The notes beneath the pieces are model-generated. The model saw nothing but the letters and a program-made list of their open reading frames with translations, was not told where the DNA came from and did no database searches. A DNA stretch of 35,588 nt from Kiritimatiellia bacterium (GTDB taxonomy: Bacteria > Verrucomicrobiota > Kiritimatiellia > UBA8416 > JABMPJ01). Position numbers and translations under genes: made by a program. The stretch lies in contig JADHWE010000023.1 in assembly GCA_016783675.1 (NCBI GenBank), positions 1 to 35,588 on the forward strand, written 5' to 3'. Within the stretch, counting starts at the first letter, position 1. Each line of letters opens with the position of its first letter. This document shows, piece after piece, positions 18,180-22,888 of this stretch.

Positions 18180-18665
18180 CTAGGCTTTCAGTTTTTTTAG
18201 CTCGGCAGTGAGCGTAACCAAATGCTGCTTCTCTTCTTCGATAATGAAGTCCACCTTGCCCTTACCCAGGTTCTCCGGCACTACGTCCTTCATCCCGAGG
18301 TAAAAAAGCACGGCGTCCTTCTCAAGGCCAATCGCGAGACGCAGGATGTCTTCCATCGTCTCCTCGCCGGTCAACTGAGCCGTGATCTTCGGTGATCCCT
18401 CAACCTTGTAGGCATCCGCCATCGTGGCGAGATACTGGCCGGCCTCGTCATACAGGTCCATCGACTCTCCCACGTCAGCGAACTGCTCGCGCATGTTCTG
18501 GAAGGTAGAAACATGCTGCTTTTCCATGTCGACCAGGTTCAGGAAGTAGTCGCGGGTCGCTTCATCCTTCTGCATGTCGGCGGCCTGCTGGTAGAACGCC
18601 TGGCCGTTGCGTTCAATCTGTACGGCCATGGCGAAGATCTCGTCGGCGTTGAATGTGATGCTCAT
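18180..18665 (-). CDS. Ferritin-like (rubrerythrin-type) diiron protein
   Basis: A 161-residue four-helix protein with a complete symmetrical diiron set: E18-x6-Y25, E48-x2-H51, E115-x6-Y122, E145-x2-H148, with exactly 30 residues from E18 to E48 and from E115 to E145. There is no rubredoxin tail (no C-x2-C), so it is a ferritin-like or erythrin-type protein, probably in peroxide or iron handling. The track start is a TTG; the ATG at 18665 follows AGAGGAGGA and is preferred. A perfect 18-bp palindrome lies upstream of the ribosome site. The same ligand geometry appears in the fusion protein at 20914, suggesting that the two domains are related. Confidence 0.9.
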   Translation of the reverse strand: MSITFNADEIFAMAVQIERNGQAFYQQAADMQKDEATRDYFLNLVDMEKQHVSTFQNMREQFADVGESMDLYDEAGQYLATMADAYKVEGSPKITAQLTGEETMEDILRLAIGLEKDAVLFYLGMKDVVPENLGKGKVDFIIEEEKQHLVTLTAELKKLKA

Positions 18666-18686
18666 CAATGTCCTCCTCTAATCATG

Positions 18687-20913: not shown

Positions 20914-21648
20914 ATGGATTACCGCCTCTTTCTGAGCACCTTTCTGCTTATCTTTCTCGCCGAGTTGGGAGACAAGACGCAGCTGGCCGCATTGACGCGG
21001 ACGGCGGCAGCCGACGGGAGCAAATGGACCGTGTTCCTTGCCGCCTCAGCCGCATTGGTGCTTTCCACGCTCATTGCTGTGCTGATCGGCGAAGGGCTCT
21101 CCAAGCTGATCGCGCCCCGCACCATCAAGATCACCGCCGGCATCCTGTTCGTGCTGTTCGGTCTCCTGATCCTGAAAGGTGTCTTCATGCCCGCGACAGC
21201 CTCGGCCGAGGCGATCACACCTGCGCCCCTGGCGCGCGTTGTGCTCAAGCTGGCGGCCGAGTTTGAGCACGCGGCCGCGGCAGATTACCGGGCGCTGGCA
21301 GAGAGGACGTCGGATCCGGCCCTGGCCGAGCTGTTCCGTGCGTTGGAACAGGAGGAAGCCGCGCACTTGGCGCACATCGAGCAGGCCGACATGGACCATG
21401 GTGAGACCAAGATGGCTGAGGCCGTTGCCGACGTGGACGCTGACCGCGACCGTCTCGCGCATGATGTTGCGGAGGCCCTGGACGTAGAGCTCTCACACGC
21501 CATTGAACATGAACAGGCCACGGCAGAATTCTACGCCGGTCTTGCCGGCACAACGCCGATCGCAGCACTCAAGCAAACGTTCCTTGCGCTGGCCCGCGAG
21601 GAGGAATCGCACGTGGCACGGCTCAAGGCGTACGCTGATAGGTCCTGA
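20914..21648 (+). CDS. UPF0016/GDT1-like half transporter fused to a ferritin-like diiron domain
   Basis: 244 residues from the ATG at 20914, which follows GGAGTGGAG (the track start at 20827 lies in the previous gene). Residues 1-93 hold three membrane helices with one ELGDKT motif (residues 17-22), the cation-binding signature of the GDT1/TMEM165/UPF0016 family of Mn2+/Ca2+ transporters. Typical members have two such repeats; this has one and would have to dimerise. After a short linker (94-106) comes a ferritin-like domain with a full ligand set: E118-x6-Y125, E148-x2-H151, E200-x6-Y207, E230-x2-H233, again with 30-residue spacings. The layout resembles in concept the membrane ferritin MbfA (ferritin plus VIT1-type transporter), but with an unrelated transporter. 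I infer metal export or storage linked to iron or peroxide sensing. It is 16 bases upstream of the VKOR gene. Confidence 0.83.
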   Translation: MDYRLFLSTFLLIFLAELGDKTQLAALTRTAAADGSKWTVFLAASAALVLSTLIAVLIGEGLSKLIAPRTIKITAGILFVLFGLLILKGVFMPATASAEAITPAPLARVVLKLAAEFEHAAAADYRALAERTSDPALAELFRALEQEEAAHLAHIEQADMDHGETKMAEAVADVDADRDRLAHDVAEALDVELSHAIEHEQATAEFYAGLAGTTPIAALKQTFLALAREEESHVARLKAYADRS

Positions 21649-21664
21649 CAGGGAGAATATACTT

Positions 21665-22888
21665 ATGCTATCGCACCGCCCGGCCCGCATCGCCATCGTC
21701 GTCTTCTCCTGTATTGCGCTCGGCATAGCGCTCTACATCATGGCCGTCGTCAAGTCGGACCAGCCGTTGCCCGGCTGTGGCGAAGACGAGTGCAACGTGG
21801 TCCTCACCAGTCGCTGGGAACACTGGGCTTTTCTCTCCGTGGCCCATCTCGGCGTGGGGGGCTATCTCTCCATGATCTCCGCGGCCATACTGGCAGGGGT
21901 CATTCGGATCCCGGTGATCCGCACCGCCCTGTGGGCCCTGATGATTGTCGAAAGCCTCACAGGCATCGGTTTCATTGCATGGCTCCTGTTCCTGCAGTGG
22001 ATCATCATCAAGCAGTTCTGCGTCTTCTGCCTTTCCTCGCACTTCTTTGGCGCCCTGGCGTACGCCGTGATACTGTTGCGCGCCCCGGCCTGGCACGGGT
22101 TCTACCACGCCCGCAGACGCCTGACCGGTACGGCTGCGGCCCTGCTCGTGTTCCTGATCGCTGTTCACATCTTCGTCGTGCCCGAGATGATGGCGGTCCA
22201 GGCCGCTGACAGTATGGAGGCCGTCGGAAGCGCTGAAGCTGACACGCTTTCAACCGGCATGCTCCAGTTCGGCAAGAAGGAGGCCTCCCGCATGGTACAG
22301 CTTCTGGATGGCAACCTGACCTTCGACCTGCACAAGGTGCCCGTCTCAGGCCCTCACGATGCCGAGCACGTCCTGGTTGAGCTGTCCGACTACTGCTGTT
22401 CTTCCTGCCGCAGCCTCCACCGTCGACTGAAGCAGTTCCAGGAAGACTATGACGTGGAGATGGTGATCGTCCACCTACCCGCACCGATGGATGTGGAGTG
22501 CAACCCCCATATCAAGCGTACCCCGCGAGGCTTTGACAAGGCCTGTAAGTATGCCCGGCTCGCCATGGCCGTGAACCATGTTGATCCGGCGCAGTTCCCT
22601 GCGTTCCACCACTACCTGATGGTCGACCGCTTCCCGCCCAAGATCGAGGAGGCCCAAGCCAGGGCGGAGGCCCTTATCGGCAAGGAAGCCCTCGCCACCG
22701 CGCAGGAGCATGAGGACGTCAAGGCATGGATCCAGAATGGTCTGAACTTGAAGCGTTACCTCAAGGCCACCACGCTCCCAAAGCTCATCACGAAAACCCG
22801 GGTCATCTCCTATTCCGGCGGCTCCAAGGGCGCCTTCAAGAAGACGATGCAAGAGGCCCTGGGGTTGGATGAGCTGAAGAAGAAGTAG
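21665..22888 (+). CDS. VKOR-thioredoxin-fold fusion (disulfide bond formation)
   Basis: 407 residues from the ATG at 21665, with GGGAGA nine bases upstream (the track start lies in the previous gene). The N-terminal part (1-175) is a four-to-five-helix vitamin K epoxide reductase-like domain with loop Cys 38 and 43 (GCGEDECN) and the catalytic CVFC at 119-122, which passes electrons to quinone. The C-terminal part (about 225-407) is a DsbA/thioredoxin-like domain with active site C245-S-S-C248 in DYCCSSCRSLH. Such fusions form periplasmic disulfides without DsbB. The extra Cys 244 beside the active site is unusual. The C-terminal domain is followed by PAPMDVECN and then ATTLPKLI, whose Thr-Leu-Pro could be the cis-Pro loop. 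A terminator follows. Confidence 0.88.
   Translation: MLSHRPARIAIVVFSCIALGIALYIMAVVKSDQPLPGCGEDECNVVLTSRWEHWAFLSVAHLGVGGYLSMISAAILAGVIRIPVIRTALWALMIVESLTGIGFIAWLLFLQWIIIKQFCVFCLSSHFFGALAYAVILLRAPAWHGFYHARRRLTGTAAALLVFLIAVHIFVVPEMMAVQAADSMEAVGSAEADTLSTGMLQFGKKEASRMVQLLDGNLTFDLHKVPVSGPHDAEHVLVELSDYCCSSCRSLHRRLKQFQEDYDVEMVIVHLPAPMDVECNPHIKRTPRGFDKACKYARLAMAVNHVDPAQFPAFHHYLMVDRFPPKIEEAQARAEALIGKEALATAQEHEDVKAWIQNGLNLKRYLKATTLPKLITKTRVISYSGGSKGAFKKTMQEALGLDELKKK

Follow-up and report, generated by a model that had tools for sequence, protein, structure and literature searches.

The window, a stretch of 35,588 nucleotides from a Kiritimatiellia bacterium, contains an intact open reading frame in which a single GDT1/UPF0016 repeat is followed by a ferritin-like domain. 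The frame starts with ATG, 7 bases downstream of a Shine-Dalgarno-like GGAG, and ends with TGA at 21646-21648. The features of the locus, all on the plus strand, are listed below.

20914-21648, plus: GDT1-ferritin-like fusion gene, intact frame of 244 amino acids and a stop codon
20914-21189, plus: GDT1/UPF0016 single repeat, residues 1-92, with three predicted membrane helices (PF01169 and AlphaFold2)
20962-20979, plus: ELGDKT, residues 17-22, the GDT1 cation-site motif, invariant in all aligned fusions
21190-21228, plus: variable linker, residues 93-105, with low pLDDT and raised dN/dS
21229-21645, plus: ferritin-like four-helix domain of the erythrin/COG1633 type, residues 106-244 (PF02915, PDB profile matches, Foldseek)
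21265-21267, plus: codon of predicted ligand E118 (alignments)
21355-21366, plus: codons of predicted ligands E148-x2-H151 (alignments)
21511-21513, plus: codon of predicted ligand E200 (alignments)
21601-21612, plus: codons of predicted ligands E230-x2-H233 (alignments)
21665-22888, plus: VKOR-thioredoxin-like (DsbA-type) gene, 16 bases 3' of the fusion gene

The VKOR-thioredoxin-like gene is possibly co-transcribed with the fusion gene; it is also found beside the fusion in two congeners (L018 and L004) and is absent from this position in other lineages. No common operon was found around the fusions, their neighbors varying by lineage (VKOR-thioredoxin in the congeners, IspH in a second branch, and unrelated ones in the remaining lineages), and no genes shared by the fusion neighborhoods across lineages indicate metal or peroxide stress. 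In the IspH branch, which belongs to Kiritimatiellota, a gene of about 110 amino acids overlaps the fusion stop codon and precedes the IspH gene (L027, 6747-7100; L029, 897-1217). A stand-alone rubrerythrin-like gene lies in the window 2.2 kb away from the fusion (18180-18668, minus strand), and three ferritin-like or rubrerythrin genes stand 5' of the fusion in locus L021 (720-1304, 1776-2315, and 2486-2977). Neither the Mn riboswitch (yybP-ykoY) nor another metal-linked RNA element of Rfam was found in the window and 21 fusion loci, where the only Rfam elements are one tmRNA and one tRNA.

The two domains and the predicted metal site

The GDT1 proteins, exemplified by human TMEM165, plant PAM71, and bacterial MneA, are widespread Mn2+/Ca2+ transporters, the regulation of which is, to our knowledge, poorly understood. 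Residues 7-83 of the window protein match the Pfam family PF01169 (E=2.7e-20, 72.9 bits against a cutoff of 27), and ELGDKT in the first helix represents the motif E-hydrophobic-G-D-(K/R)-(S/T). Transport by MneA requires the Glu, Asp, and Lys residues equivalent to those of this motif (PMC7380456). The AlphaFold2 model, a monomer built from 65 aligned sequences, has membrane helices at 3-18/21-32, 37-65, and 68-91, the first of them broken at G19-D20 of ELGDKT, then a low-confidence linker at about 92-105, and a four-helix bundle (106-131, 135-162, 189-213, and 217-243) with pLDDT mostly 86-97. The original prediction held that GDT1 proteins normally have two repeats and that a half-size one is unusual. 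The former is partly right, but single-repeat proteins are a recognized bacterial class, thought to form antiparallel dual-topology homodimers (PMC4067407), so that the half size is not unusual in itself.

For the C-terminal half, Pfam places PF02915 (Rubrerythrin) at residues 111-239 with a near-cutoff score (E=1.5e-4, 22.6 bits against a curated cutoff of 22.8). Among 29 aligned relatives, GDT1 was matched in all 29 and Rubrerythrin in 28 (E<=0.01, the best E being 2.2e-13). The family profile matches the solved ferritin-like proteins 2fzf (E=8e-11) and TM1526/1vjx (E=5e-10), and Foldseek, queried with the whole chain including the membrane part, matched the bundle to TM1526 (1vjx), PA2169 (4etr), and the Mn catalase KatB with probability 1.0 and E of about 0.02. 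The rubredoxin Cys4 domain is absent, and the 244-residue protein has no Cys at all. Together with the model, these matches bear out the early description of the protein as a GDT1 repeat with ELGDKT joined to a complete ferritin-like diiron-type domain. By sequence, the fusion belongs to the GDT1 family, and the domain it carries to the ferritin-like superfamily.

The predicted ligands E118, E148, H151, E200, E230, and H233 stand exactly where they had been placed, with a 30-residue spacing within each half of the domain. All six are invariant in the alignment of the window protein with 10 homologs from the same order, and are kept in 35 of the 42 distinct fusions compared (the window protein and 34 of the 41 others). 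None of these 42 sequences departs from H151 or Y207, and the eight positions that vary least in the domain include E118, E230, E200, and H233. Ligands are lost in the fusions L037, L040, L057, L121, L122, L124, and L126. In L040, L121, L122, and L126, the site is changed alike across relatives to E-H-H-Q-E-(L/M) with the fold kept, the form in L040, L121, and L122 being E-H-H-Q-E-L.

Distribution, selection, and split genes

The 42 full-length fusions come from Kiritimatiellota/Verrucomicrobiota, Lentisphaerota, Planctomycetota, Spirochaetota, and Fibrobacterota. A scan of contigs, with one genome per species, found them under Kiritimatiellia/Verrucomicrobia, Lentisphaerota, Planctomycetota, Spirochaetales, and Chitinivibrionales/Chitinispirillum titles, and whole-genome searches added further fusions in the window's phylum, Spirochaetota, and Planctomycetota, for five phyla overall. 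About 20 of 388 genomes of the window's phylum have a fusion. Within the order, it is full-length in 11 genomes (42-100% identity) and cut by contig ends in a twelfth. The nearest named record (L017) is 86% identical and comes from a Kiritimatiellia metagenome assembly. Thus the frame is neither broken up in relatives nor a lone artefact: it is intact in dozens of genomes, and the two spirochaete splits described below are adjacent genes.

In four congeners, dN/dS, where computable, ranges over 0.02-0.11 in the GDT1 part and over 0.05-0.19 in the ferritin-like part, whereas for the linker it is 0.19-1.43, against 0.02-0.19 for both domains; all these values are rough, with synonymous sites near saturation. 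On these estimates, purifying selection acts on both halves and the linker changes freely. In the tree of the GDT1 part, a weak one of 96 columns, the fusions cluster, with six state changes against 33 for shuffled labels, and this is weakly consistent with a single origin. Some plain GDT1 singletons nest among the fusions in the same 96-column tree and look, again weakly, like secondary losses of the tail. Because of these nested singletons and of the ligand losses in some fusions, the ferritin-like domain appears to be dispensable in places. A different C-terminal extension follows the GDT1 repeat in the Planctomycetota loci L045 (3569-4105), L175, and L176; it has conserved Cys and His residues (C-x2-C, HDHPELR, DHH, and C-x2-C) and is perhaps another metal-binding tail.

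In two spirochaete loci, a GDT1 singleton is directly followed by a separate ferritin-like gene matching the fusion's domain. In L058, the two genes are 1 base apart, and the ferritin-like product retains all ligands (E=5.5e-20 to the fusion's domain); in L070, the adjacent gene matches with E=1.2e-12. The split ferritin-like gene lacks an obvious signal peptide. Halves that form one gene in some genomes and two neighboring genes in others are classical evidence that they are functionally linked. At about 1593-1712 of locus L063, 3' of a GDT1 singleton, a piece resembling the end of the ferritin-like gene was observed (QDTGHLLVLLKLMG), possibly a remnant of such a gene.

Two other spirochaetes, G417 and G444, each have a gene pair in which a diverged fusion stands 5' of a plain GDT1 gene. 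Adjacent GDT1 gene pairs were seen in the spirochaete loci L142 (1194-2220, minus strand) and L144 (1181-2226, minus strand). As of 2014, GDT1 gene pairs were known from cyanobacteria only (PMC4067407).

Copy number and membrane topology

Every fusion genome of the order, and 15 of the 16 from the wider set, gave a single GDT1 match; most of these genomes are metagenome-assembled, and the counts are subject to their incompleteness. In the window's own genome (a metagenome-assembled genome, MAG, 71.6% complete), the fusion is the only GDT1 gene found. Within the limits of the assemblies, this rules out a missing partner half, since fusion genomes other than the two spirochaetes with pairs each have one GDT1 match.

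Single-repeat GDT1 proteins show little K+R bias, and antiparallel homodimers have been proposed for them (Demaegd et al., PMC4067407), whereas the cyanobacterial pairs have opposite biases, the 5' gene being positive in even loops (PMC4067407). For the partnerless fusions, the K+R bias (odd minus even loops) averages -0.08 (sd 1.1) and is exactly 0 in 25 of 48. In the G417 and G444 pairs, the bias is -3 for the fusion and +5 and +4 for the partner. Judged by charge counts alone, and as a prediction rather than an observation, the solo fusions would have dual topology. By the same counts, the bias of -3 predicts a cytosolic ferritin-like domain in the paired fusions, where the orientation is fixed; the split genes for soluble ferritin-like proteins point the same way.

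It is possible, although we rather doubt it, that the solo fusions form antiparallel homodimers from copies inserted in both orientations, with di-metal domains on both faces binding or oxidizing the metal at entry and exit, and that in some spirochaetes a duplication gave rise to one subunit with a cytosolic domain and one without it. The dual topology of the solo fusions is directly testable, as the large soluble domain marks the side which each copy faces.

Possible functions and comparison with known systems

MbfA of Bradyrhizobium and Agrobacterium consists of a ferritin-like domain and VIT1. We suggest, with belief and doubt in about equal measure, that the fusion is an MbfA-like Mn2+/Fe2+ exporter built on GDT1 instead of VIT1. 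It would be a secondary transporter of divalent cations, assembled from an antiparallel pair of three-helix repeats, that most likely moves Mn2+ and/or Fe2+ out in exchange for protons. The C-terminal di-metal domain, tethered via the short linker, would bind the metal, and possibly oxidize it, where the transporter opens to the cytosol, thereby feeding or gating export like the ferritin-like domain of MbfA. In the original prediction, an exporter gated or fed by a diiron (or Mn/Fe) center would perhaps protect an anaerobe from iron or peroxide stress. Substrate, direction, coupling, and any ferroxidase or sensor activity are proposed here by analogy: every characterized GDT1 member moves Mn2+, and MneA exports it (PMC7380456), while the ferritin-like domain of MbfA is a cytoplasmic ferroxidase needed for iron export through VIT1 (PMC7762939). 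Against the exporter reading stand the lack of a metal-linked RNA element and of a telling neighborhood in the loci analyzed, the lost ligands of some fusions, the plain singletons nested among the fusions, and the absence of mutual exclusion with VIT1. Further, if the solo fusions are dual-topology, half of their ferritin-like domains would be outside the cytosol.

The main rival to export feeding, in our view a rather unlikely one, is that the domain is a sensor, in which binding of Mn2+/Fe2+ or reaction with O2/H2O2 controls the GDT1 transporter allosterically, as an on/off switch. A switch of this kind would suit the short and disordered linker that connects the domain with the membrane part, and the lineages that kept the fold but lost ligands (L040, L121, L122, L126, and L037), with part of the site preserved in L040, L121, and L122, fit regulation more easily than catalysis, a slight point in its favor. 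However, most members retain a complete site of the catalytic type, E-x6-Y pairs with the invariant Y207 included. It is less likely still that the domain is a tethered oxidase or peroxidase that guards the membrane or the Mn pool and is co-located with the transporter but not coupled to transport. The rubrerythrin-type ligand set, the Mn catalase KatB and erythrins among the fold matches, and the rubrerythrin-like genes that lie close to the fusion both in the window and at L021 agree with this role, but no rubredoxin or other electron-donor domain is present, and the tight one-to-one fusion with a single transporter family, together with the linkage in split operons, suggests a direct functional link. 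Import of metal, for instance loading Mn or Fe into or from the domain, seems improbable: the direction of GDT1 transport is not set by sequence, and plant members act in either supply sense, but bacterial MneA exports Mn and confers Mn tolerance (PMC7380456). Finally, an assembly or gene-prediction artefact, which mostly metagenome-assembled genomes might bring to mind, is ruled out by the identical architecture in independent assemblies of five phyla, and, given this recurrence and dN/dS values far under 1 for either half, the chance that the domain is a functionless lone accretion is negligible.

Compared with the described GDT1/UPF0016 singletons (PF01169, about 100 amino acids, three membrane helices; Demaegd et al. 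2014, PMC4067407), the exporter proposed here has the same domain and E-x-G-D-K-T motif but adds a 140-residue ferritin-like domain, with which the known members have not been described. With the COG1633/TM1526-type ferritin-like proteins, among which 2fzf and 1vjx are its closest solved relatives, and with rubrerythrins, that domain shares the four-helix bundle, the E/ExxH/E/ExxH ligands, and the E-x6-Y spacing, but it is membrane-tethered and has no rubredoxin domain. The G417 and G444 pairs resemble the cyanobacterial GDT1 pairs in adjacency, gene order, opposite charge bias, and the predicted cytosolic C-terminus of the 5' gene, but their 5' partner bears a diverged ferritin-like tail.

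VIT1 had no match in the window's genome (MAG, 71.6% complete). Within the order, it occurs in none of the 12 fusion genomes and in 6 of the 19 others (P about 0.04, without correction for kinship), and across the phylum in 6 of 21 fusion genomes and 74 of 388. With no mutual exclusion across the phylum, functional replacement of VIT1/MbfA by the fusion was rejected; replacement of MntP gave no signal either (1/12 against 9/45). Apparent open frames combining a ferritin-like domain with VIT1 were observed in genomes G069, G085, G103, G122, G183, G206, G312, G347, G370, G005, and G045 of the window's phylum; these MbfA-like frames are distinct from the GDT1 fusions. A review confines MbfA to α-proteobacteria (PMC7762939).

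The likeness to VIT1-type MbfA that had been proposed is apt, as the MbfA domain is cytoplasmic, acts as a ferroxidase, and is required for export (PMC7762939). Both proteins follow one plan, a ferritin-like di-metal domain fused to a divalent-metal transporter, the domain being likely cytosolic and likely serving export (PMC7762939). The fusion is not an MbfA, because it lacks two defining features, the VIT1 domain and the N-terminal position of the ferritin-like domain: its transporter is a half-size GDT1 (PF01169) rather than VIT1 (PF01988), its ferritin-like domain is C-terminal, and it occurs in other phyla. A UPF0016-ferritin fusion is not known to have been described before, as the original prediction noted, and our literature search, subscription papers and domain-architecture databases aside (where automatic listings may exist), found no paper joining UPF0016/GDT1 with a rubrerythrin or ferritin-like domain. 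The recurrence of the fusion suggests that metal export can be coupled to the binding or oxidation of metal in a manner not yet described, and the di-metal domain hints at which metals this GDT1 branch handles. In mirroring MbfA on an unrelated transporter, the fusion suggests that ferritin-like domains became coupled to the export of metals on more than one occasion.
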